Part shown: piece by piece, positions 5,536 through 19,012 of the stretch
How the letters are laid out: each line of letters begins with the position of its first letter
How positions within the stretch are numbered: position 1 is the stretch's first letter
NCBI GenBank assembly: GCA_009711805.1
Contig: VEMX01000005.1
Span: 1 to 64,000, forward strand
DNA length: 64,000 bases
Direction: 5' to 3'
From: Balneolaceae bacterium
Lineage (GTDB): Bacteria > Bacteroidota > Rhodothermia > Balneolales > Balneolaceae
Made by a program: the position numbers and the translations under genes
The notes under the pieces: model-generated
Database searches by the model: none
What the model saw: the letters and a program-made list of their open reading frames with translations, nothing else
What the model was told of the DNA's origin: nothing

Positions 5536-6723
5536 TTGAAAGTATTACTCATCATTGAGGGAACATATCCCTGGTATAGAGGGGGAGTAAGCGAATGGGT
5601 ATATCAGTATCTTGCAGAACTGACTCACTGTTCTTTTACCATTCTCCAAATAGCTACGGATGAATTTCAAGGGCTGGATCCTCAACAAGCTTTGTACCCC
5701 TTTACAGATAATATTTCCGGTTTTATCCGGGTTAAACCCCCGGAGATGAACGGAGAGTGGGATGCTGATGCGAAGAAATGGTATTCAAGCCTTACTCAAA
5801 AAATACATGCAGCGCTAAACGATCAGGAAATCATTCATGTGACCAACACCGGTTTTGCCGGCTGGCTGGGCACACAAGTAGCTCATGCGACGAATTTACC
5901 CCTGGTGTTAACAGAGCATGCCATTTACTGGAAAGAAATTGAAAAAGGAGCCGTAGCTCTTGAATGCGGATATAAAGTGCCCCTGCAACAACATCGGAAA
6001 CAGGCCATTGTACAGGTTTTTAAAGATATGGCCACAGCAGTATATCAACAGTCTTCAAAAATAATTACGGTATCGCGTTCTAACATCCCATATCAAAGGG
6101 ATCTTGGGGCAAAACATATTGAGTATATACCCAATGGTATTCCCAAAAGCTGGCTGAATCCATTTAATGGTATGGGGGAGCAGCCAACTATTGGTTGGGT
6201 GGGGCGATGCGCTGAAATGAAAAACCCACTCCTTTTCTTTGATGTGGTGGCTGAATTAAGGAAATCCAGCCTGCAACCCAACTATACCATGCTGCTTAGT
6301 GATGCCAACGAAAAAGAACTGGAAGCACAAGTAAAGCAGAAAGCCATCCGCTTTCCCGAAGTACAGCTGATTTGGAATCAAAATTCCAAAGAATATTTCC
6401 CTGATTTTGATTTTCTGATGATTACCAGTCATAATGAATCTCAGCCTTTGGTTATGCTGGAGGCCCTGGCAAATGCGGCTCTTCCCGCAGGATGGCAAGT
6501 AGGTGATTTAACCTCAGAGTATGGAATAGTAGTAAAAGAAGGGGCGATGGTTACTGAATTAGTTTCTGCTATAGAGCAGGTATGGAACACCCCATTACGT
6601 TATAAACAACGGGTAGAAGAGCGTTTTGAATTTGTTAAAGATCACCACTTGTGGAAAGATATTTTTAGTCGCTATCAAGAGGTTTTTGAACAACTCATTT
6701 TTCAACAAACAGCAATACATTGA
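5536..6723 (+). CDS. GT4-type glycosyltransferase, short PelF-like paralogue
   Basis: A GT-B fold enzyme of 395 residues, probably cytoplasmic and using a nucleotide sugar. The N-terminal EGTYPWYRGGVSEW motif closely parallels the EGSYPYSGGGVSTW motif of the next gene. The C-terminal half has GWVGRCAEMKNP and the EX7E motif (E301, E309) in SHNESQPLVMLEAL. It is about 130 residues shorter than PelF, lacking PelF's long insert after the first Rossmann strands. It begins with a TTG behind AGGAGGGAG and overlaps pelF by 4 bases (TTGA). Canonical Pel loci carry a single glycosyltransferase, so a second sugar, priming or branching step is possible; its substrate is unknown. Confidence 0.85.
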   Translation: MKVLLIIEGTYPWYRGGVSEWVYQYLAELTHCSFTILQIATDEFQGLDPQQALYPFTDNISGFIRVKPPEMNGEWDADAKKWYSSLTQKIHAALNDQEIIHVTNTGFAGWLGTQVAHATNLPLVLTEHAIYWKEIEKGAVALECGYKVPLQQHRKQAIVQVFKDMATAVYQQSSKIITVSRSNIPYQRDLGAKHIEYIPNGIPKSWLNPFNGMGEQPTIGWVGRCAEMKNPLLFFDVVAELRKSSLQPNYTMLLSDANEKELEAQVKQKAIRFPEVQLIWNQNSKEYFPDFDFLMITSHNESQPLVMLEALANAALPAGWQVGDLTSEYGIVVKEGAMVTELVSAIEQVWNTPLRYKQRVEERFEFVKDHHLWKDIFSRYQEVFEQLIFQQTAIH

Positions 6724-8303
6724 GCAAGAATAAACCTCTCATATTATTCGAAACCGAAGGGTCGTATCCCTATAGTGGAGGGGGGGTCTCAACCTGGTCG
6801 CATATTCTGTGTAACGAATTGATCGATGATATTGATTTCCAGATTTTAGCTATTACGGGGAATCCATATGTAGAAAGCCGCTACCGGATGTCCGCTAATA
6901 TCAAAAAAATAATTCATATTCCACTATGGGGGGTAGATGAACCCTCAGAATACTACGATGCCGACCATCCCTTTTCTTATCAGATTAGTAAAAAAGCACG
7001 TACCACTACTAAAACGATAAAAAAACTTTTTTTACCCCTGTTTAAAGATTTTGTTGATTGTGTATTTGATCCCTACCAGTCTCCCAGAAAGATTAGTGAT
7101 GTTATTTATGGCTTTTGGAGATACTTCCAGTTCTTCGATTATAAACTAACGATGCGGGAACCGGCTCTTTGGAAGCATTTTAAAGCCAGCCTGTTGAGCC
7201 GGGTTGAGGATAACCCGGAACTTGATATTGAAAATCCACGGGTTTTTGACATGACTTTTGGAATGAGGTGGTTTTACCATTTTCTAATGCCTTTAGCTAC
7301 TCCCGTATCTCCAAAAATTGATGTAACACATGCTACACTGGCGGGATTTCCCGCACTTTCATCTATAGCTGCAAAATATGAATATGGCACGCCAAGCTTG
7401 GTGACCGATCATGGGGTGTATATGCGGGAACGGCTTATAAATATCGGAAGGGCAGATATGCCTTTTTTTTCTAAAAAACTACTGGTCGATTTGTCTACAC
7501 TGGTAACGAGGGCCGTTTATTTTACGGCTGATCAAATTTCACCGGTTACAACGGCAAATCAGGAATGGGAAATGCGATTTGAAGCCCCGGAAGAAAAGAT
7601 TGTTCCCATTTACAATGGAGTAGATACCGATTTGTTTAAACCGACTCCCAAACCTGAATCCACGGCCAATCAGCCTACGGTTATTGCGGTAGCCCAGGTA
7701 TTTCCGCTGAAGGATATAGAAACGATGATACGGACAGCAAAGCTGGTGAAAGAGGAAATTCCTGATGTGCAGTTTATCATTTATGGCAGTCTGGATGTAG
7801 ATAAGGAATATGTTGAAGGGTGCAGAGCCTTGGTAAAGGAACTGCACCTGGAGGATACCTTTACCTTTGGCGGATTTCATAACCAGCCCAGCAAGATTTT
7901 TAATGAGGGGGATATCTCAATTCTTACTTCCATATCTGAAGGATTTCCCTATACCGTGATAGAATCGATGAGTTGCGGCCGCCCGGTAGTGGCTACTGAT
8001 GTGGGAGGGATAAAAGATGCTTTGGAAGGGTGTGGAATTCTATGTAAACCCAGAGCCCCTCAAAACATTGCAGACGGAGTGATTAAACTGCTTAATGATG
8101 ACAGTTTGCGGATCGAATTAGGAAAAAAAGCCCGCGATAAAGTACTCCTTACCTTTACAACAGAAAAATCAGTGGATGCTTATAAGGATACTTACATAAA
8201 ACTAACCGAGAAAGAACGGCAGCCCTTAAAGAATTCAGTAGAAGTAAAATCTGTGCTTAATGTAATTGCACATACAGAGGAGGAGCAAGTTGTCGCAGGT
8301 TGA
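6720..8303 (+). CDS. pelF: PelF-type exopolysaccharide glycosyltransferase
   Basis: A GT4 enzyme of 527 residues. The N-terminal EGSYPYSGGGVSTW glycine-rich loop, a large family-specific insert (~60-220) and the C-terminal donor site with EX7E (E407, E415) in SEGFPYTVIESMSCGRPVVATDVGG match PelF. In P. aeruginosa PelF is the soluble transferase that polymerises a partly de-N-acetylated GalNAc-rich polymer and acts with the PelG/D/E membrane complex. The start is TTG overlapping the previous stop. The pelG gene overlaps its 3' end by 14 bases. The last ~20 residues are a polar tail. Family assignment is firm; the identity of the sugar is inferred. Confidence 0.9.
   Translation: MSKNKPLILFETEGSYPYSGGGVSTWSHILCNELIDDIDFQILAITGNPYVESRYRMSANIKKIIHIPLWGVDEPSEYYDADHPFSYQISKKARTTTKTIKKLFLPLFKDFVDCVFDPYQSPRKISDVIYGFWRYFQFFDYKLTMREPALWKHFKASLLSRVEDNPELDIENPRVFDMTFGMRWFYHFLMPLATPVSPKIDVTHATLAGFPALSSIAAKYEYGTPSLVTDHGVYMRERLINIGRADMPFFSKKLLVDLSTLVTRAVYFTADQISPVTTANQEWEMRFEAPEEKIVPIYNGVDTDLFKPTPKPESTANQPTVIAVAQVFPLKDIETMIRTAKLVKEEIPDVQFIIYGSLDVDKEYVEGCRALVKELHLEDTFTFGGFHNQPSKIFNEGDISILTSISEGFPYTVIESMSCGRPVVATDVGGIKDALEGCGILCKPRAPQNIADGVIKLLNDDSLRIELGKKARDKVLLTFTTEKSVDAYKDTYIKLTEKERQPLKNSVEVKSVLNVIAHTEEEQVVAG
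8276..8285 (+). promoter_or_regulatory. strong ribosome binding site inside pelF, deciding the pelG start
   Basis: AGAGGAGGAG lies within the end of pelF, four bases before the TTG at 8290-8292. It argues for that TTG over the in-frame TTG at 8266. Confidence 0.65.
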
Positions 8304-9918
8304 ATTGAATCCCATACAACTCTCTCAGGAGGAAGCTTTAGAGCAGTTAACCAACAAGGTGCTGGAGTTGGTCGGTAATCCGGTAAGTACCTGGGCTGTA
8401 GCTGCCACCATAGAGTCGCTGGGAATAAGAGATGTGGATGCAAAAGAAGACTACGGATATGAGTCTGTTTTTGACTTAGCTGAATATGTATATAAAGAAG
8501 TGAAAAATCTCTCCCAGAGTAAGTTGGATATAGAGGAGGGAATCAGAAAATTCAAGATCGGGAGTTTTAGCCGAAGTGCCAAGATGTTTCTGAAGCACTA
8601 TTCAGCCGGCCTTATTTTTTCTATGCCTATGATCTCTCAGATTATAGCTATACTTATTTTTGAATATGCTCTGTGGGCCTGGTTTAACTTTAATGAAGCT
8701 CAGGCTACGGTAGTAGCTTTTGGTACAATTGTCGCTTTTGTAGTTACAGGTGGGTTTATACAAACACTGGGTCGGCTGGTTTCCCGATACAAAGGGGAAG
8801 GGAATATGTTTTTGGCCTCCAAAGCCACCGCAGAAGTAATGCGTATAGCCATTCCTGCAGTACTTTTGGTTGGAGCGGCCGTATTTATGTTAAATATTTT
8901 GCTTCCTTTCTATCCCCAAAGTATGGTTGCTTTGGCTATTATTTATATGGTACTTATTTCATTTTTATTGTTGTCATCTGCAGTGTTGTTTGCAACTCAA
9001 CAGCGTACCGTGATCTTGATTGGAATTTTGCTGGGGACAGCCGTTGTTATTATTTGCATGGATTTCCTGGGGATGGGAATCTATTTATCCCAGTGGTTAG
9101 GAATTTTATTCGGAACAGTTGTTATGACGGTGTACGGGGTTGTATACTTTCGTCTTAAGATAAAATCACTCAGGCAGGAGATTTCCCATCATACATTACC
9201 GGATAAGGAAGTAACTTACTATAATAGCTATCGATATTTCATCTATGGATTCTGTTATTTCCTTTTTCTGTTTATGGATCGCATAATAGCCTGGTCTGCC
9301 GGGCCTCCGCCTCCTGCTTATATTATCTGGTTCAACACCCCGTATGAGCTGGGCATGGACTGGGCCCTAATAAGCCTTGTGGTTACCATTGCAATGCTTG
9401 AGTTTAGTATCCATTCATTTTCGAAGAACCTTATTCCAGCGCAGAAAAAGGCAATGATAACTAAGATTAAGCTGTTCAACCGGCATTTTAGACAATTTTA
9501 TGTACGTCAGATATTACTTTTATTAGTAGTTGGTGGGATATCAATCATTTTAACATATTATGGAGTGTTGAGTCTGAAAATTTTTGAAGACAAAGTTCCT
9601 GAAATTCGAGACTTTTTTGCTAACCCGATGACCTTCCAGGTTTTTTGGATGGCAAGTATAGGCTATTTATTGTTAACCTATGGTTTACTCAATAGCTTGT
9701 TTTTTTTCACCCTTAACCGACCGGAATTTGTCATGTATTCTATGATTGGTTCCCTGTTGGTTAATTTTGTTGTAGGATACTTTTGCAGCCGTACTTTTGG
9801 CCTTGAGTATGCCACTATTGGTTTGATTGTTGGAGCTCTTACATTTTCATTATCCACAGGTATAATGGCACGCAAGTTCTTCAAAAATCTTGATTACTAT
9901 TATTACTCAGCATTTTGA
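8290..9918 (+). CDS. pelG: PelG-type polysaccharide inner-membrane transporter
   Basis: A protein of 542 residues from the TTG behind AGAGGAGGAG (an in-frame TTG at 8266 would add 8). A soluble helical N-terminal part (~1-95) is followed by about twelve hydrophobic segments, the pattern of PelG, a MATE/Wzx-like membrane protein of the Pel synthase complex. The stretch FMDRIIAWSAGPPPPAY and the following NTPYELGMDWALIS (near 320-360) are typical of the family. It would carry the growing chain across the inner membrane with PelF. It directly follows pelF (14-base overlap) and precedes the HD-GYP-like gene by 9 bases. Confidence 0.88.
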   Translation: MSQVELNPIQLSQEEALEQLTNKVLELVGNPVSTWAVAATIESLGIRDVDAKEDYGYESVFDLAEYVYKEVKNLSQSKLDIEEGIRKFKIGSFSRSAKMFLKHYSAGLIFSMPMISQIIAILIFEYALWAWFNFNEAQATVVAFGTIVAFVVTGGFIQTLGRLVSRYKGEGNMFLASKATAEVMRIAIPAVLLVGAAVFMLNILLPFYPQSMVALAIIYMVLISFLLLSSAVLFATQQRTVILIGILLGTAVVIICMDFLGMGIYLSQWLGILFGTVVMTVYGVVYFRLKIKSLRQEISHHTLPDKEVTYYNSYRYFIYGFCYFLFLFMDRIIAWSAGPPPPAYIIWFNTPYELGMDWALISLVVTIAMLEFSIHSFSKNLIPAQKKAMITKIKLFNRHFRQFYVRQILLLLVVGGISIILTYYGVLSLKIFEDKVPEIRDFFANPMTFQVFWMASIGYLLLTYGLLNSLFFFTLNRPEFVMYSMIGSLLVNFVVGYFCSRTFGLEYATIGLIVGALTFSLSTGIMARKFFKNLDYYYYSAF

Positions 9919-9927
9919 GGTATAAGC

Positions 9928-11553
9928 ATGATTAGAGATTTTAAACAATATTTTAGTACAGTTGGGAACAGGTTGAGTAAAGCCTTTTCGATGGAAGAGT
10001 TTGGCACAGAAGAAGAGCTCGAGTTTTGGTCTCTTTCTGCTGAGCATATGTCCCGAAGAGAACTCCCTGCATTTACCGATATCGCCAAGTGGATCGATCT
10101 GCTGTATAAAGCCCCCGTTCATTTTGTTTATCGATTTGAAGAAGACAAGTTAGTGCTCGACCGCCGGCACATTATCTCCGAGAATATCCTGAAAGGAGAG
10201 GATGGAGAGAAGATGCCGCATGAACAAACACCCCAGCAAAAAGAGTTTATCCACAATTTTGAGAGCCAGGTACAGAATATTGAAACTAAAATAGACTGGG
10301 ATGACGAGTTTAAAGAACATGGGATTTCTTCCCATGCCATTGGACAGTGTGAACATATCCCTCTGTATACCAAATCAGGAGACATTTGGGGAGTGTATTT
10401 TGTAGGGCCTTATATAAAATGTCCCGAGCAGGTAGTTGCCAAAATATCGATTATTGGACGCATTTTATCGTCATGGTTAATTCAGATCCAGGAACAAGAG
10501 AAAAGCCAAAACAAGGCTTACGACAAAAAAGTCAAGGAAATAACATCAGACCTGGGAACAGGGCAGTTAAATACTGAAGGCATAGCCAGGTTAACGATAC
10601 AATACATTATAAATGCACAGAATGCCGGTTCGGGGGCTATTGTTGAATATAGGGATGAGATGTTCAAGTTGATTACCTCGGCAGGTTTTGATGAAGGTTT
10701 TACGGCCTATTTTGATTCGGCTAAACAGGAATCTCTGTTTGAGGAATCCAACGGTAAATTTACACTTAGTGATACCGGGAAAGCATACTTTGAAATTCAA
10801 CAAGAGAATCTTCGTTTGCTTCCATTTGAAAGTGAGAAGGCCTCCGGTTTTGTGTTCCTCATAAAAGGAAATGGAAAAGAATTTTATAACATTGAACCTA
10901 TATTGGATGAAATAACCGCTTCTGTGGGACTTTTGCTGGACTATAGAGAAAACAATATTGAATTCTCCAATGAGTACCTCAATACCTATTACACTATGCT
11001 GCGGGCTATAGAAAAAAGCCGTGATAAAACAAAACATCACACCCCACGGATGATTGCTTTTGTACAACGCTTTGGAATGCTTTTTGGACTGGAAGCGGAT
11101 GAAATGGAGATCATTAAGAAAACAGCAAAATTACATGACATTGGCTATGTGGGGGCGGCTGGACTGGAATCGGGTAAGTCGATAGGAGGAGAGCTCACAC
11201 ACCCGGTTATAGGGGCTAATTTATTAGAACAGCTGCCCATTCACGAAGATATAATCAGTGGAGTCAGAACCCATCATGAGTGGGTTAATGGCAGCGGCAG
11301 TCCAAGGGGGGTTACCGGGGAAGAAATTTCATGGACCGGGAAAATTATAGGCGTATTCGAGTTTGTAATCGATTTTATTGAAAGTTACGAGCATGACGAT
11401 TCCAAAACCGCTGATGAATGGTCTAAAGTGCTGTCGAAAAGAATTATGGAGAGAGCCGATAAAGAGTTTGATATGGTATTGGTGCCTACGGTTATTCAAC
11501 TAATTCAAATGCTCGGATGGGAAGGTTGCGTTTCTTTAGGAGTTGAGGAATAA
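9928..11553 (+). CDS. GAF-GAF-HD-GYP-like protein in the place of PelD
   Basis: A soluble protein of 541 residues. Two GAF-like modules (~40-195 and ~215-345) are followed by an HD-GYP-like domain (~360-540). Visible HD residues are H370/H371 (HHTPRM), H403-D404 (KLHDIGYVG), a THP histidine, and H449-H450 in THHEWVNGSGSPRG. The GYP signature is degenerate (GSP), and the usual later Asp of the ADxYDA motif appears to be Glu (VFEFVID). HD-GYP proteins hydrolyse cyclic di-GMP, while PelD binds it through a GAF/GGDEF pair. Here the protein could be a receptor or a weak hydrolase. It is encoded between pelG and the GH114 gene. Its role is inference; the domain call is firm. Confidence 0.8.
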   Translation: MIRDFKQYFSTVGNRLSKAFSMEEFGTEEELEFWSLSAEHMSRRELPAFTDIAKWIDLLYKAPVHFVYRFEEDKLVLDRRHIISENILKGEDGEKMPHEQTPQQKEFIHNFESQVQNIETKIDWDDEFKEHGISSHAIGQCEHIPLYTKSGDIWGVYFVGPYIKCPEQVVAKISIIGRILSSWLIQIQEQEKSQNKAYDKKVKEITSDLGTGQLNTEGIARLTIQYIINAQNAGSGAIVEYRDEMFKLITSAGFDEGFTAYFDSAKQESLFEESNGKFTLSDTGKAYFEIQQENLRLLPFESEKASGFVFLIKGNGKEFYNIEPILDEITASVGLLLDYRENNIEFSNEYLNTYYTMLRAIEKSRDKTKHHTPRMIAFVQRFGMLFGLEADEMEIIKKTAKLHDIGYVGAAGLESGKSIGGELTHPVIGANLLEQLPIHEDIISGVRTHHEWVNGSGSPRGVTGEEISWTGKIIGVFEFVIDFIESYEHDDSKTADEWSKVLSKRIMERADKEFDMVLVPTVIQLIQMLGWEGCVSLGVEE

Positions 11554-12405
11554 ATGAAATCTCATGCCGTCACTCTTCTTTTATTGTTCCTGTTATCCGG
11601 TTGTAAGGCAACGGAAGAGGGAATAATGGACCTTTCCCAAAACACACCTTTTGGAGCTATATACGCCAAAACTACTCCATCCCAGGTTCAAAATTATAAT
11701 ATGGTTATTATCGAACCTGATCATTATACCAAGGCCGAAATTGATGCTTTAAAAGCAACCAATACCCGGGTTATAGGATATATCACCCTTGGAGAGGTAG
11801 ATAAAAGCAGATGGTATTTTCCCTTGCTCGAAGAACGGGGATTTGTAGGGATTAATGAAAACTGGGATAGTCCCTACCTGGATTTAGCCGATGACTCTAC
11901 CCGGGCTATTGTACTGGACAAGGTACTACCCGAAATTATGATTAAAGGGCTTGATGGTGTTTTTCTTGATACGGTGGATGCAGTATCTCCATATGGTGAA
12001 CGTTCACACCTCCAATCATATATGGTTCAACTTATTCAGGGGATCCGAAATCGTTACCCTAATACAACCATTATTCAAAATGCCGGATTCTTTTTGTTAG
12101 AGCAAACTGCTCCTTTGGTGGATGGAGTATTGATTGAAGACATAGCCACCAGCTACGATTTTGGAAAAAGAGAGTATATTTACAGAGACCAGGAAGACTA
12201 TCAGCAACGTCTTGATTACCTAAAGAAATACACTCTGGAATACGATTTACCATTTTTCATTATAGACTTTGCTGTTTCTCCGGAAAAACAAGCCCAGGTA
12301 CGCCAACGATTAGACTCTCTTAAATTACCTTATTTTATAAGCAATATAGGATTAACAAAACTACCTTCGAATACAAATAGAGTAGCTAATAAAATATCAA
12401 ACTAA
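11554..12405 (+). CDS. GH114 lipoprotein, PelA hydrolase-domain homologue
   Basis: A protein of 283 residues. A lipoprotein signal (LLSGC, C17) places it in the envelope. The rest is one GH114 (endo-alpha-1,4-polygalactosaminidase-type) TIM barrel. D139 in GLDGVFLDTVDA and E195 in DGVLIEDIATS fit the expected acidic active-site positions. In P. aeruginosa this domain is the N-terminal hydrolase of PelA, fused to a deacetylase. Here it is a separate gene, with the deacetylase two genes downstream. The ATG directly follows the TAA of the HD-GYP-like gene. It probably trims or releases the polymer in the periplasm. Confidence 0.88.
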   Translation: MKSHAVTLLLLFLLSGCKATEEGIMDLSQNTPFGAIYAKTTPSQVQNYNMVIIEPDHYTKAEIDALKATNTRVIGYITLGEVDKSRWYFPLLEERGFVGINENWDSPYLDLADDSTRAIVLDKVLPEIMIKGLDGVFLDTVDAVSPYGERSHLQSYMVQLIQGIRNRYPNTTIIQNAGFFLLEQTAPLVDGVLIEDIATSYDFGKREYIYRDQEDYQQRLDYLKKYTLEYDLPFFIIDFAVSPEKQAQVRQRLDSLKLPYFISNIGLTKLPSNTNRVANKISN

Positions 12406-12414
12406 GTCTAAATA

Positions 12415-14472
12415 ATGGATTATAGTATCCAGGTAATATTTGCTGCATTGAGGCTTACGCTGGTCTTCCTGTTACTTTTCGGGTGGCTGACTCCAAAGTT
12501 CCTCAAATATGCCGGCCAACAAAACGGTATAGATCGAATTGTATACTCTTGGGTAGGTTTAGGGGGCTTGTTGGTTATTTCAGTTTTTATACTTGTGCAG
12601 CTTCGTCTATATGATTTTATCAGCCTGATATTTGTATTGTTTTTACTGCCCGTTGTGTATTATCTAATTAGTGAGTATGCAAAAAAAAGAAATATCCGGA
12701 GAGTTTTTTTAGATGCAGAAAATAATATTCTCTATAGTCAGGTTCGGGTATTAGAAAACTTTAAAACCATTTCTCTTAAAGCGATAAAAGACCGCTACTA
12801 CACAAAACCAGAGTTTAAAGTATTCAATAAACCCTATCGGTTGTCTGCGGTTATTATAGCTGTATTTGGTGCTTTACTCAGAATGGTACCCGCTTTTAAA
12901 AATGCGTCTCCCTTCAGCCGAAGCTGGTATTTTGAACTGGATGCAATCAAAAACCTAAGTCTTCAAACCTATTTCGGCGAAACTGCAGCCCCTAAGGGAA
13001 TGCACTCCATCATTCATATTTTCAGTACCCTTACCCAGGTAAGCCCGGAGATGATACTCCACATAATGGGGTCGTTAACGAGTTTCTTTCTCACGGTAAT
13101 CATTTTTTGGGTTATCACAAACATCACTCATAAGAAGTATAGAATAGCTGCTTTATTCGGATGCGGGATATATGCACTTTTCCCGGTGTTATTTATGCCC
13201 ATTACCTTTGAGCTGCAGACAACATCCAGCTCACTTTCGCTGGCATTGTGTTTTGCAATACCCACCGTTGTCTTTTTTCTCCGGCTTATCAGGGAAGAGG
13301 ATGAAACCCCCTGGCTTTATCTTGTAATGGGGATTATGGCCACGGGCCTGGTAGACTTATTTGTTTTTATTATGGTTCTGTTCCCCATACTCGTCGTTTC
13401 ACTGGTTGCCATACGGATAATTAGCCGGTCCCGTAATTTCACAAAATCCGCATTAATTGTTCTTGTGTCCTGTGCCTTAACCATTATGCCGTACCTGCTC
13501 TACGTCTATTCTGTCGATCAGGACTTATTCGACTTTTTTAAATCCCAACTATTCGACAGTGGTGTTTTTAGTTTTTATCCTGATTTAATCCTGGATATAG
13601 AACTGTTAAGTATACTTTATATGGGCCTGGGACTGTTTTTAGTGACCATAAGCATGGTCAAATATTTCAAAATGGAAAATCCAGAAATAGAAGAAGAGTT
13701 TGTATTTATTATCCTATTCTGCATGGTCTCATTTATTTATACTCCTTATTTCAAATACGATTACATTTTAATAGACCCCGATCAATTAAACAGTTTTTAC
13801 AGTGTACTTATAGCCATTTTCTTTGGAATAACTTTTTATTCATTAATTAAGCTGGTGGAATGGCTTTTTAAGGTTTCCCATAAAGTTATGCATTATTTGT
13901 CGATAACTACGACAGTGGTACTGGCTGTTTCTGTCATTATTTTGCAAGGAGGCATAAAAACCAGTCGTGTACTCCCTCAAACATTACCAAATGGATTTTT
14001 TAACGCCTATTATAAGATCATATCCGAAAGAGTACCTTACACCTATGCTACGGTAGGTCCCGAGTTAGACAGGATACTTTCGAAAAACCGACACTTTTTT
14101 ATGAATTATGACTTCTTTTTAAATAACTATGGTGTCATCGACTCCCTGTACCAGCAATACCTGACAGTACCTGATGTACAGCGAGAAAACAAAGATGTAC
14201 CCCCGGCAAGTATCTTTTTGTTTGTTGAAAAACCGCCATATGGAACCATTCAACAAGGTATTTTGTATGATTCCCCCGATGTAATGCGTGATATTGAACA
14301 ATGGCTCAATTCATTTAAACTTATGGAAAACCGAGTACTTAAGGTTTATTATGAAGATGAAAATGCACGAATTTATGAGATTGTGAACAGAGATGGCGAA
14401 TCAGACATTCAAGGTATTTTGCTAAATATGTATCCTGATGAGGAAGAGCGTGCGTCAAATATATTTGAGTAG
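12415..14472 (+). CDS. large polytopic membrane protein of the pel-like locus, unknown function
   Basis: A protein of 685 residues with roughly 12-14 hydrophobic segments and few catalytic clues. A polar stretch at ~105-135 is cytoplasmic-looking. FSRSWYFELDAIKNL and PKGMHSIIHIFSTL (~165-200) form an extracytoplasmic-looking loop after TM4, and a soluble C-terminal domain occupies ~520-685. The layout resembles GT-C glycosyltransferases or oligosaccharide membrane enzymes, but I see no DxD-type motif I would rely on. It occupies the place of PelE, which is much smaller with two membrane segments. The 3' end overlaps the next gene by 35 bases, implying translational coupling. Function unknown. 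Confidence 0.75.
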   Translation: MDYSIQVIFAALRLTLVFLLLFGWLTPKFLKYAGQQNGIDRIVYSWVGLGGLLVISVFILVQLRLYDFISLIFVLFLLPVVYYLISEYAKKRNIRRVFLDAENNILYSQVRVLENFKTISLKAIKDRYYTKPEFKVFNKPYRLSAVIIAVFGALLRMVPAFKNASPFSRSWYFELDAIKNLSLQTYFGETAAPKGMHSIIHIFSTLTQVSPEMILHIMGSLTSFFLTVIIFWVITNITHKKYRIAALFGCGIYALFPVLFMPITFELQTTSSSLSLALCFAIPTVVFFLRLIREEDETPWLYLVMGIMATGLVDLFVFIMVLFPILVVSLVAIRIISRSRNFTKSALIVLVSCALTIMPYLLYVYSVDQDLFDFFKSQLFDSGVFSFYPDLILDIELLSILYMGLGLFLVTISMVKYFKMENPEIEEEFVFIILFCMVSFIYTPYFKYDYILIDPDQLNSFYSVLIAIFFGITFYSLIKLVEWLFKVSHKVMHYLSITTTVVLAVSVIILQGGIKTSRVLPQTLPNGFFNAYYKIISERVPYTYATVGPELDRILSKNRHFFMNYDFFLNNYGVIDSLYQQYLTVPDVQRENKDVPPASIFLFVEKPPYGTIQQGILYDSPDVMRDIEQWLNSFKLMENRVLKVYYEDENARIYEIVNRDGESDIQGILLNMYPDEEERASNIFE

Positions 14473-17400
14473 TTTAGTCCTATTCATGGCCGGTTTGGTT
14501 TTAATAACCAGCTGCAGTGAGTTTTCCAATTCAGATAATGTCGATTTGGGTAAAATCACTGAACAGGAGCCCTATGTTTTACTGATTAAGCACCGCGAAG
14601 ACGATTACAGTACGGAGGTTTCAAACCAAATAAGCCGGTCACTTGAGTATGCCAAACTTCCTTTCAGGACTCTTGATTTAGGTTTAATATCCGAAAAGAT
14701 AGAAATACCTTCCCGAACACGAAGTATTATCATAACTACTTATCTTGCTAATGAACTTACCAACAGTGAATTAGAACGGTTACTTGCCTTTGTTACTGAA
14801 GGGAATTCTATTGTTTTTACAACTCCTGTTACCTACGACAATATGGTGTATTTCCAGGGCATTGATCCTGACTCTGACTACGCCGTTGACAGTACCGCAC
14901 AAGGCGTATATTTCGATGAAAATATTCTTCCCGGTTTTCAGGGAAAGCAATTTTTTACAAAACAAGGTTCATTTCATAATGGCTATAAGAGGAATGTATT
15001 TCATGAGGATCTAAAAGTGTTAGCCTCCTCGGCCAATGAAAAAGAGATGCCTTTTATTCTTTCCAATGAAATAGGTTTAGGCGAAGTTATTACCTTTAAT
15101 TCGAATGCAATGGGGGATAAGCTATACCGGAGCTTAATTTTTTCCACTATCCTTCGGGGCTTACCCGGACTTCCATATAGTGTCGCAAATGTGAGCACAA
15201 TTTTCCTGGATGATTTTCCAGCCCCACTCTACAACAAGATGCTTCCCCCTATTGATAAAGAGTATAATGACACACATGCCCAGTTTGTTGCTAAAACCTG
15301 GTGGCCCGATATGAAAGCCTTTGCTGATACTTTTAACATCGATTATTCGGCTATGACGGCTTTTAATTATAATGCCAACGTAGTGCCACCATTCGATTTT
15401 TTTGAGTGGCAATCAGGAAGCATTGAGGAAGATGGAGAAACATTCAAGGGAAGCATTTACATAGCACATGATATTCTTGATTCACGGCACGAACTTGCGT
15501 TTCATGGCTATAACCACTTTTCTCTGCAAAACGAAGATTGGCAGAATATTAACTTTATGATTTCTGCCCTGCAGGCTGCCAGAAAAAGATGGCGAATCGA
15601 TAATATGGGGTCGCTTCCTACAAATTATGTACCTCCAACCAATATGATTGATTCTACCGGGGTTCAGGCTGTAGCAAAAGGAATGCCCAGTATAAAATAT
15701 ATGAGTTCTCTTTATCTGGGTGAGGTAGAAGCCGGTGGGGGGCGTGAGTTTGGCCCCGAACCATATGCGCCAGGTAAAATATTTGACTATCCCAGAATTA
15801 CCAGTGGCTTTACAATGAACGAAAATTCTCTTTTCGACCAACTTAGTCTTCAGCTTTTAACCGGCATATGGACTCATTTCATTCATCCGGATGATGTGTT
15901 CCAGGTTGAACAGCGGGAAGAAGATCATTTTACCAGCCGAAACCCTTTAAAATTGGGATGGAAATCTGATCCGGACTATGGATACGGTTTATATCATTTG
16001 TTGAGAAAACGAATCTTGTATACCAATGAACAATATCCTCTCAGCAAGTATATTACTGCCACGGAGGGCAGTAAATATGCCCAGGATTGGACAAACCGTA
16101 TAAGCCTCTATTTAACCGATGGGAACTTTTTTACCCTCCAGAGTATCACAAGGCCCAATTATATACCCAAAAGTGTACATACCGAAAATCATTGGTTTAT
16201 GTATGTAAAAAAATCTCAGGTATCAGAGGCTGAACCTTTTCTTGAGACTCAGAAACTAAATTATGTTCGTACTGAAATATGGGATGGATATCTGTATCAG
16301 TTTCATACAGAAAGGAATTCATTGACCTTTCCGGTATTGGATAATGTACTCTTTTACGATGAACAGTTTGTAGAACAATTAGTACAGAACGAAATTGCGA
16401 ATTACCGGGCATATCTGTTACCTCCAACTTATGCAGGCGAGGTGGAAGAATGGAGAGATACCCGTTTGGAAGATGCTTTAGAAACACTCAGGAAAAAGCC
16501 GAATAGTCTGCAGGCACAGAACGAAGTAATAGCACTCAGTATAGAATTTAGTCAGGTAGACCGGGCAATTTCTATTGTTGAAGAAAGAATAAAAAACAGT
16601 ACTCAAATAAAAGAGGCTGATATAGATAGTTTGATCATGTATTACGGATGGGAGGGAGCCCAGGCCCAGGCTGAAATTTTCCTGGAGGAACTATGGGATA
16701 AATATGAGAATAAAAAGGTACTGGATGTTAAAAATCAGGCTGTTGAAGAATTGGGGCTGTATGGGGATGATTTTGATAAACGATGGATGAAGAGAAGGCT
16801 GGATCTGAATCCCGGGGACAGGGATTTGCTTTTTTCTTACACTCAAAGAATAGAAAGTGAGGAAAGCTGGCCCAAAGTAAAACAGAATTTATTGCAGTTG
16901 ATTAAAGAGAATCCTCATTCCGATTCTTTATATGCCTATACCATCCAGAGATCTATTTATTATGAAAGCCCCGATAGTACGTTGGCACTGTTAGAACGAT
17001 TTCCAAGAAGCGCATATCCTCAGCTGCAAGAGTTTGCCTCAAATTTTTCACTCTTGTATGCCTATGACTTAGGAAATCTAAACAGGGCTTTATACTGGGC
17101 TGGAAAGGCTTCTGATTTTGATGATACCATTATACTTGGATGGTTAGGTGAACTGAAGTTGTATGCACAATATCTTGAACTGGCTGATCAAATATTAGAG
17201 GAAAATCCCAATGATTCTAAGCTGAGAAGCAGGATAGGAAGTCAACTTTTTTATCAAGGGTTTCAGGAAAAATCTTATACCATTTTATATCCAATCTTCC
17301 AGGCAAATAAAGAGGCGGGTACACAGGCTGATACGCTTATTACTGAAGAAATTGGTTTCATGGATTATGAACGCAAAAAAGAATTTTACCGAAGATATCC

Positions 17401-18328
17401 TGCATTCTTTAATCAAACCCAATACAGCGCGCTTAAAGAGTCTCACCGATGGAAGGAGGGGATTAGTATCACAATGGATGCTGAGTACCGTTACGACAAT
17501 TTCAATAACTCCTATGGGCGGGGCGGGATAGGAGTGCAGTTTGGAAACCGCAGAAATTGGGCTCACACAATTATGGCGAGGGATTTATATTTTAGTGATC
17601 GTACAAGTTTAAGTGATGAATATTTTAACTATGCAGGAACCGGTTATAAATTTGAGTATAAAACGAAAGCCCAGGATTTTACTTTTAGCGGAGGTCCCTC
17701 TTTTCTAATAGGGAATGATGATTTTTTACCTGAAGTACTGCTTTCTGCCAGTTACTCATATGATTCTACCTTTACCTCAGTGGAGGCTAAATTTGAAAAC
17801 GTATTGACCTCCAGAGCCATTCAGGAAGATATTAATCGTTTCCAGCTACAAATATATCGGGAGGATAACTGGGCAAACGGACACCTTGTAACTTCCTTTA
17901 GCGGAATGGGGCGTTATCACACTAATGAGGTGTATGAGTATGAAGCTTTTGGAAGAATATACATCCGTCCCGGGAGCGGAAAGTTTAGGTTCAGAACTCT
18001 TGCAGAATTAAGCTATGCGGACGCCACCAAGAGCTTTCCATCGGGGATACCATACTATACCCCGGATAGCTACTTTTCAAAAGGGGCAGGCATAGACCTC
18101 AGGTATCGTAATCCCGATACGTTTGAATACGATTCACAGGTATTTGTAGAATTGCTTGGAAAACACGAAAACGAAGAAGGATATTATTTTACAGGCCGTG
18201 TACAACTTGAACATAGTTTGAACAATTTCTGGAAAATTAATATAGGCACAGATATTTCTACAAGCAGTTTGTATAGATCGAATAAATTTTTTATTACTAT
18301 CAAGCATCATTTTCCAGTGAAGCTATAA
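14438..18328 (+). CDS. PelA-type deacetylase / TPR / beta-barrel fusion lipoprotein
   Basis: A protein of 1296 residues. A lipoprotein signal (LITSC, C26) leads. Residues ~40-240 form a Rossmann-like domain as in DUF2194/PelA (PYVLLIKHREDDYS). Residues ~250-640 form a deacetylase with D258-D259 (TIFLDDFPAP) and H356-GYN-H360, matching the metal/catalytic Asp-His-His of PelA and other CE4-like deacetylases. From about W672 to ~1000 there are TPR-like helical repeats. From about 1002 to the end there are alternating amphipathic strands ending in KHHFPVKL, an outer-membrane barrel. P. aeruginosa has PelA and PelB as separate proteins; here deacetylation and export are one chain. The start overlaps the upstream gene. 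Confidence 0.85.
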   Translation: MRKSVRQIYLSSLVLFMAGLVLITSCSEFSNSDNVDLGKITEQEPYVLLIKHREDDYSTEVSNQISRSLEYAKLPFRTLDLGLISEKIEIPSRTRSIIITTYLANELTNSELERLLAFVTEGNSIVFTTPVTYDNMVYFQGIDPDSDYAVDSTAQGVYFDENILPGFQGKQFFTKQGSFHNGYKRNVFHEDLKVLASSANEKEMPFILSNEIGLGEVITFNSNAMGDKLYRSLIFSTILRGLPGLPYSVANVSTIFLDDFPAPLYNKMLPPIDKEYNDTHAQFVAKTWWPDMKAFADTFNIDYSAMTAFNYNANVVPPFDFFEWQSGSIEEDGETFKGSIYIAHDILDSRHELAFHGYNHFSLQNEDWQNINFMISALQAARKRWRIDNMGSLPTNYVPPTNMIDSTGVQAVAKGMPSIKYMSSLYLGEVEAGGGREFGPEPYAPGKIFDYPRITSGFTMNENSLFDQLSLQLLTGIWTHFIHPDDVFQVEQREEDHFTSRNPLKLGWKSDPDYGYGLYHLLRKRILYTNEQYPLSKYITATEGSKYAQDWTNRISLYLTDGNFFTLQSITRPNYIPKSVHTENHWFMYVKKSQVSEAEPFLETQKLNYVRTEIWDGYLYQFHTERNSLTFPVLDNVLFYDEQFVEQLVQNEIANYRAYLLPPTYAGEVEEWRDTRLEDALETLRKKPNSLQAQNEVIALSIEFSQVDRAISIVEERIKNSTQIKEADIDSLIMYYGWEGAQAQAEIFLEELWDKYENKKVLDVKNQAVEELGLYGDDFDKRWMKRRLDLNPGDRDLLFSYTQRIESEESWPKVKQNLLQLIKENPHSDSLYAYTIQRSIYYESPDSTLALLERFPRSAYPQLQEFASNFSLLYAYDLGNLNRALYWAGKASDFDDTIILGWLGELKLYAQYLELADQILEENPNDSKLRSRIGSQLFYQGFQEKSYTILYPIFQANKEAGTQADTLITEEIGFMDYERKKEFYRRYPAFFNQTQYSALKESHRWKEGISITMDAEYRYDNFNNSYGRGGIGVQFGNRRNWAHTIMARDLYFSDRTSLSDEYFNYAGTGYKFEYKTKAQDFTFSGGPSFLIGNDDFLPEVLLSASYSYDSTFTSVEAKFENVLTSRAIQEDINRFQLQIYREDNWANGHLVTSFSGMGRYHTNEVYEYEAFGRIYIRPGSGKFRFRTLAELSYADATKSFPSGIPYYTPDSYFSKGAGIDLRYRNPDTFEYDSQVFVELLGKHENEEGYYFTGRVQLEHSLNNFWKINIGTDISTSSLYRSNKFFITIKHHFPVKL

Positions 18329-18366: not shown

Positions 18367-18678
18367 ATGCGATTTTTCAACAGACATCTTGAGTGGTCAG
18401 TTTTTACCGCAGGCTTACTGCTGTTAGCTTTAATGGATCCCACCATTCAAGGCACCTCATTCTGTTTTTTTGATTTTATTGGAATCAACTTTTGTCCCGG
18501 AGAGGGCTTAGGTCATTCCATCGCATATACATTCCGGGGGGAATTCAGATCAGCGTTTCAGGCTAATTTCATGGGGCCATTTGCAATATTGATCTTAGGA
18601 TTTCGAATTATACATATCTGGAAAGAACTACTTTTAAATAATACACATAAAACACTACAGGAGATCAATCATGGCTAA
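18367..18678 (+). CDS. DUF2752-family small membrane protein
   Basis: A protein of 103 residues with two hydrophobic segments (~10-24 and ~66-84) around the DUF2752 signature. The usual CPGCG is CPGEG here (FCPGEGLGHSIAY), followed by the family's downstream Asn-containing stretch (AFQANFMGP). The missing second Cys is notable. The family's function is unknown. It begins 38 bases after the fusion gene, overlaps the TM2 gene by 8 bases and shares the strand, so it may be the tail of the pel-like operon or a separate pair. Confidence 0.75.
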   Translation: MRFFNRHLEWSVFTAGLLLLALMDPTIQGTSFCFFDFIGINFCPGEGLGHSIAYTFRGEFRSAFQANFMGPFAILILGFRIIHIWKELLLNNTHKTLQEINHG

Positions 18679-19012
18679 TGTATTAGACCATTTACCAGAA
18701 CTTGAAGGCGATGAGGCATTATATGTTGGAAAACTTCTATCAGAAACAACGGATGAGCGGGCTTCAAAATTTGCTAATATATACCGCAGCCGAAGAAAAG
18801 ACCCTCAAACAATTATGATTACCTGTTTGCTTGGCTTTTTCTTAATTGCAGGTATTCACAGATTAATACTAAATCAGACCGGAATGGGTATTCTTTATAT
18901 TCTAACCGGGGGCCTATGCCTTGTTGGTACTATTGTAGATTTAGTAAACTATAAAGACATGACCTTTCAATATAACCGGACCGTTGCCCAGGAAATAAAC
19001 AGCCTCATTTAA
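18671..19012 (+). CDS. TM2-domain membrane protein
   Basis: A protein of 113 residues. A soluble N-terminal part (~1-45) is followed by a TM2-type domain with two membrane helices joined by a short loop (FLIAGIHRLILNQTGMGILYILTGGLCLVGTIVDL, ~57-93). The DRFY-like motif of the family is replaced by GIHRLIL. TM2 proteins are found in many bacteria without a defined role. It overlaps the DUF2752 gene by 8 bases and abuts the convergent DUF5777 gene with no gap. No terminator is visible between them. Confidence 0.8.
   Translation: MANVLDHLPELEGDEALYVGKLLSETTDERASKFANIYRSRRKDPQTIMITCLLGFFLIAGIHRLILNQTGMGILYILTGGLCLVGTIVDLVNYKDMTFQYNRTVAQEINSLI

Follow-up and report, generated by a model that had tools for sequence, protein, structure and literature searches.

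A predicted single-chain polysaccharide modification-and-export protein in a Pel-like operon of Balneolaceae

The window analysed here, 64,000 nucleotides of contig VEMX01000005.1 from a Balneolaceae bacterium (GCA_009711805.1, positions 1 to 64,000), carries a Pel-like operon with a gene in which a deacetylase, tetratricopeptide repeats (TPRs) and an outer-membrane barrel are joined in one chain. The gene occupies 14438-18328 on the + strand, exactly as an earlier note on this DNA had placed it, and all features given below for the window lie on that strand. Its product is likely to be a protein of a Pel-like system that both modifies and exports a polysaccharide in a single chain. This is the best reading because the CE26 active site is intact and has an assayed relative, the exporter half has polysaccharide exporters as its top five Foldseek matches, the fusion belongs to a conserved gene cassette, and the same fusion, sought in other genomes as the note had proposed, was found at 46 loci.

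The reading frame runs from an ATG start through 1296 codons, uninterrupted and with no internal stop. The open reading frame, the Pfam match to DUF2194, AlphaFold2 and Foldseek together give a layout of lipoprotein signal, CBM114-like domain, CE26 deacetylase, beta domain, ∼10 TPR-like pairs and 16-strand barrel. AlphaFold2 was run on residues 240-1296, using a 39-row alignment, and on residues 27-1004, with mean predicted local distance difference test (pLDDT) scores of 87.3 and 89.1, respectively. The signal peptide (14438-14515) ends in the lipobox that had been noted earlier, I-T-S-C26, and is the sole strongly hydrophobic segment. The best 19-residue hydropathy is 2.1, at residue 8, while past residue 30 the maximum is 1.06; thus, the chain has neither an inner-membrane helix nor a second signal peptide at the junction of its two halves. 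A lipobox-type cysteine closes the leader in 40 of the 46 aligned fused proteins, the exceptions being a Balneola subclade and one other, and, judged from these leaders, the lipid anchor appears to be common but dispensable. Residues 27-36, right after Cys26, are predicted to be flexible (pLDDT 38 in the model of residues 27-1004).

The first half of the protein is a deacetylase module. DUF2194 covers residues 15-552 (E = 7.9e-67; 226.3 bits, cut-off 30.4), and the only convincing solved sequence relative of the fusion protein is PelADA of Bacillus cereus (PDB 9ZAU; phmmer E = 6.9e-34 over residues 54-490), the founding member of CE26 and CBM114, which deacetylates oligomers of alpha-1,4-linked N-acetylgalactosamine (GalNAc) (PMC13254593). 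An N-terminal CBM114-like alpha/beta domain (residues 46-249; 14573-15184; pLDDT ∼90) precedes the CE26-type de-N-acetylase domain (residues 250-535; 15185-16042). A beta-rich domain follows (residues 540-640; 16055-16357), with predicted strands at residues 554-632, in the position of the third domain of PelADA. The 9ZAU residues D262/D263/H350/H354/R458/H488/D491 pair with D258/D259/H356/H360/R453/H483/D486 of the fusion protein, and all seven are unchanged in every row of the 39-row fused-protein alignment. The deacetylase site proposed in the earlier note, D258-D259 with H356/H360, is thus borne out, and R453, H483 and D486 can be added to it.

The match of catalytic residues argues that, in sequence, the enzyme is of the Gram-positive PelADA type (CE26/DUF2194) and not of the CE21 type of Pseudomonas PelA. 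Of the earlier description of the enzyme as PelA-like, therefore, 'deacetylase' stands and the PelA type does not. PelA proper, a CE21 plus GH166 protein with deacetylase and hydrolase in one chain, was ruled out on two grounds, as the hydrolase here is a separate GH114 gene and the deacetylase matches CE26. The three-domain module, the catalytic residues and a Pel-type operon with pelF and pelG are shared with B. cereus PelADA, but the latter, 610 residues long, crosses the membrane once and has no TPRs or barrel, whereas the fusion is a predicted lipoprotein joined to an exporter. The N-terminal membrane helix of PelADA, modelled to contact PelG, is a trait of the B. cereus protein rather than of the enzyme family; no such helix was found at the N-terminus of the fusion protein, which has the lipobox instead and the leader as its only hydrophobic segment. 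The first Foldseek match of the N-terminal half was the human heparan sulfate N-deacetylase NDST1, and 9ZAU was not among the matches listed, probably because the structure library ends in April 2026.

The second half is predicted to be a TPR-barrel exporter. In the AlphaFold2 model, 20 helices form ∼10 TPR-like pairs (residues 676-1007; 16463-17458), followed by exactly 16 strands (residues 1009-1292; 17462-18313), the number reported for PelB, BcsC and PgaA alike (PMC12141448). The repeats and strands that had been read from the sequence, starting at about residues 672 and 1002, correspond closely to these elements, and the AlphaFold check suggested at that time does place a barrel at the C-terminus. 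The solenoid profile matches consensus TPR chains, e.g. 8bu0, and several fused members have TPR Pfam matches. Inside and outside residues alternate along the barrel strands, with 68 of 102 outward residues hydrophobic and 36 of 101 inward residues charged, and a short helix between strands 7 and 8 lies where PelB has its Plug-I helix. The first five Foldseek matches in the PDB were BcsC 9b8a (1.2e-11), BcsC 9b8h, PgaA 4y25 (template modelling score 0.70 over the target), BcsC 6tzk and PelBC 9h80 (1.1e-8). The loop joining strands 11 and 12 carries a PYYTP motif (residues 1205-1209; 18050-18064) in which P1205 is invariant. Its equivalents are PYYNP in E. coli PgaA, GYYSP in BcsC, and PYWTP both in the exporter of Kryptonia and in a divergent fusion from a genome designated G244, which are described below.

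No match to PF24604 (B-barrel_PelB_C) was obtained in the fusion protein, its homologues, the whole genome or three Bacteroidota relatives. Nine PelB proteins were then gathered with PF24604 for a profile-profile comparison, and hhalign gave probabilities of 4-10% between these and the fused exporters, ruling out a true PelB identity. Taken with the PYYTP loop and a weak PgaA_barrel match of the G244 fusion (0.0064), these results identify the exporter half as a member of the BcsC/PgaA/PelB fold that is PgaA/BcsC-like in sequence and is not a PelB. The likeness to PelB drawn in the earlier note thus holds for the fold but not for the family. E. coli PgaB-PgaA and BcsZ-BcsC share the TPR-barrel fold and the loop motif and include the best structural matches, though in both systems enzyme and exporter are separate genes and the enzymes belong to other families.

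A lipobox at one end of the chain and a barrel at the other had been seen as a topology problem. It is not one, because proteins of the OprM/CusC class already combine a lipid anchor and a barrel; the barrel can sit in the same membrane whose inner leaflet holds the lipid, and the two-ended topology is no paradox. Two of the fusions have ∼300 extra residues beyond the barrel, one at locus L054 (487-5436, − strand; 1650 codons) and one at L055, which is the same as L073 (L073:8929-13734; 1602 codons). The L054 tail has a SPOR match barely above the Pfam cut-off, and SPOR domains in known proteins bind peptidoglycan. This match points to a periplasmic C-terminus of the barrel, which is also what 16 strands and a periplasmic N-terminus demand.

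The genes upstream of the fusion provide the rest of a Pel-like pathway. They encode a second PelF-like GT4 glycosyltransferase with a DUF3492 domain (5536-6723; PF11997, 1.5e-32; NF038011, 90.1 bits, under the cut-off of 100), PelF itself (6720-8303; NF038011, 156.3 bits against the same cut-off), a PelG-like transporter (8266-9918), an HD (HD-GYP-like) regulator (9928-11553; PF13487, 5.4e-11), a GH114 hydrolase that is syntenic in fused loci (11554-12405; PF03537, 61.9 bits) and, in a conserved position, a polytopic membrane protein of 685 amino acids (12415-14472) whose gene overlaps the start of the fusion by 35 bases. The PelG-like protein of the window has no PF16933 match, but its orthologue at locus L074, linked to it by phmmer at 3e-86, matches most of that profile (6.2e-6; 25.8 bits, against a cut-off of 29). 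The GH114 gene is the counterpart of the hydrolase half of PelA, and the HD protein possibly takes the place of PelD. No recognisable PelD or PelE was present among the window neighbours, and no recognisable PelB or other exporter gene in the conserved operon.

The conserved cassette is pelF-pelG-GH114-membrane protein-fusion, with the fusion last in nearly all fused loci. In Flavobacteriaceae it consists of just these five genes and the flanking genes are unrelated; no further conserved gene was found in that operon, and PelC was not recognised, although no search aimed at PelC was made. PgaA and BcsC need no additional lipoproteins (PMC12141448), and a similar independence would agree with the lack of other conserved genes in the operon. 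The operon of Anaerolineales has the same order, pelF-pelG-membrane protein-deacetylase, without an exporter, and its membrane protein is a homologue of the 685-residue protein (E = 6e-14), which has no Pfam family. In almost every Bacteroidota locus that protein is kept between GH114 and the fusion; it is also present in the pel operon of Kryptonia, and is probably an undescribed Pel component. Other parts of the locus vary by lineage. In Balneolaceae operons the DUF3492 glycosyltransferase gene precedes pelF; at L073 it comes after the fusion and is encoded on the other strand. The Flavobacteriaceae loci showed no separate copy of it. HD genes occur in most Balneolaceae loci, and Kryptonia and G244 have HD together with SpoIIE-type phosphatase proteins (L102:5080-8999; L160:4962-8538); neither type of regulator was recognised in the pel loci of Flavobacteriaceae. 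Genes with DUF2752 and TM2 domains (18367-19012 in the window) follow the fusion in most Balneolaceae loci.

Among 67 named loci, 46 are fused and 21 unfused. All fused loci come from Balneolaceae, Flavobacteriaceae or other Bacteroidota, save one contig labelled Limnohabitans (Comamonadaceae; L098), which bears a Flavobacterium-type fused operon and is probably misbinned. The unfused loci come from Chloroflexota, Bacillota, Spirochaetota, Thermotogota, Kryptonia, Alphaproteobacteria and others, and no relatives of the fusion were found in viral contigs. In 395 genomes of the phylum, a full DUF2194 match was present in 26, each time in a frame of 1268-1349 amino acids. A profile of the exporter half, made from the main fused clade, matched 25 of these 26 and no stand-alone full-length copy. 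The split gene in close relatives that the earlier note had named as a possible refutation was therefore not encountered, and the only split pair found belongs to Kryptonia, a distant group.

In the remaining one of the 26 genomes, G244, the fusion is divergent; it has 1342 amino acids, canonical TPRs and a longer linker. Its exporter half, used as the query, led to stand-alone TPR-barrel genes (products of 550-555 amino acids; open frames of 552-569 codons) in genomes with an unfused deacetylase (∼626 codons), which are taken to be Kryptonia. The main-clade profile had given only TPR-level matches there, and the view that Kryptonia lacks an exporter was overturned by the G244 query. Like the fusion, Kryptonia has a DUF2194 protein in a pel operon (L102, L103 and L187) and a TPR-barrel protein with the PYWTP loop (L183-L185), but these are two genes at different loci, and the exporters at the loci examined lie away from the pel operon, adjoining glycosyltransferase, ABC transporter and membrane-protein genes beside other polysaccharide genes. 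Split and fused states thus both exist within the phylum.

The main fused clade forms one side of a branch in the tree with a support of 99-100. A single fusion event that includes G244 was rejected, as the G244 deacetylase falls outside this clade and an approximately unbiased (AU) test goes against one clade (p = 0.006). The fusion probably arose twice, a statement of direction and number in which the second event rests on one genome. We give about even weight to the broader proposal that diderm Bacteroidota acquired a Pel module of monoderm type and fused its deacetylase to a PgaA/BcsC-like exporter, yielding a complete PelC-independent outer-membrane export machine, and that at least two such fusions (the main clade and G244) speak for selection in favour of passing the polymer chain straight from the active site into the pore. 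Two observations on unfused relatives may be added. Alphaproteobacterial DUF2194 proteins at L104:6101-10734 and L105:6117-10722 have as neighbours a GT4 and a protein that apparently ends in an outer-membrane barrel domain, with no pel operon; this is a different pathway, which may employ the same kind of deacetylase. Several Lachnospiraceae-type loci (L113, L114, L116, L118 and L121) have a tandem pair of DUF2194 genes before pelF.

In the proposed mechanism, PelF and PelG would make an amino-sugar polymer and move it across the inner membrane, and the TPR solenoid would steer the product to the C-terminal 16-strand barrel of the same chain and so outside the cell. With enzyme, guide and pore in a single polypeptide, a complex of the PelA-PelB type would be locked at a 1:1 ratio. 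In Pseudomonas aeruginosa, where a deacetylase likewise works with a TPR and 16-strand-barrel protein, the deacetylase has been modelled with AlphaFold2 on TPRs 9-15 of PelB, and PelB enhances deacetylation (PMC12022489). That system differs in having two proteins, a CE21 esterase, 19 TPRs against ∼10, a PelC ring and the PF24604 barrel (PMC12022489, PMC12141448). In the fusion, the deacetylase is attached at the front of a solenoid of ∼10 repeats, which corresponds roughly to the stretch of PelB between docking site and pore. Read most simply, the protein would be a permanent form of the PelA-PelB complex that binds, deacetylates, guides and exports the polymer, and channelling of substrate from deacetylase to pore is plausible.

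Four observations weigh against this reading. Sequence does not put the exporter half in the PelB family; the pore lining is charge-balanced and not acidic, unlike the anionic lumen of PelB (PMC12141448); the predicted template modelling score of 0.46-0.67 leaves the relative placement of enzyme and pore uncertain; and Kryptonia keeps an unfused deacetylase with its exporter at another locus, so that a pathway of this kind can do without the fusion. Net charge was considered as a test of a cationic substrate and was not decisive, since the TPRs are acidic in most members while the lumen is balanced.

The rival that survives best, a minority possibility of some substance, is that the protein handles a polymer other than Pel and other than alpha-1,4-GalNAc, e.g. 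a relative with other amino sugars. The divergence of PelG from PF16933, the failure to recognise PelD, PelE and PelC (with no search aimed at the last) and the PgaA/BcsC-like signatures of the exporter would all suit it, but PelF scores above its curated cut-off, a GH114 hydrolase is in the operon, and the only solved relative of the deacetylase acts on alpha-1,4-GalNAc (PMC13254593). It is improbable that cleavage of the exported chain releases the deacetylase from a separate TPR-barrel, with the fusion serving only to set stoichiometry; in favour, the stretch at about residues 662-673 has a pLDDT below 50 and varies in length among members, but the alignment of fused proteins contains no conserved cleavage motif at the junction. 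Slightly less probable still is a barrel that serves merely to hold the enzyme at the outer membrane, with no role as the export pore: the lumen is not clearly anionic, but the TPRs and 16 strands find their best matches in polysaccharide exporters, the PYYTP loop is common to PgaA and BcsC, and the conserved operon offers no other exporter gene. The joining of two adjacent genes by a sequencing or assembly error, conceivable in a draft genome of 99 contigs, is rejected as having a negligible chance, given the same single-frame architecture in the 46 fused loci and in each of the 26 full-length matches to DUF2194 from the 395 genomes of the phylum, the lack of a hydrophobic signal-like segment at the junction and the single origin of the main clade on the tree.

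No earlier description of a PelA-PelB fusion, or of Pel in Bacteroidota, was found in the open-access literature searched. The nearest precedent is the BcsZC protein of Zymomonas (PMC7112194), in which a periplasmic polysaccharide enzyme is likewise fused to an outer-membrane pore, though there it is a hydrolase of a cellulose system and here a predicted deacetylase of a Pel-like system. Many Bacteroidota thus have in one protein the polymer-trimming enzyme and the predicted outer-membrane pore that the best-studied bacteria make as separate partners. As PelA-PelB and PgaB-PgaA have been studied in that separate form, a natural covalent pair bears on how deacetylase and exporter cooperate, and a single purified protein should keep the enzyme, its guide and the pore aligned for structures and transport assays. 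For Balneolaceae and Flavobacteriaceae, the operon is also a candidate biofilm pathway of the Pel type, on which the same literature yielded no papers, and the split and fused lineages make a pair for studying why the fusion was kept.

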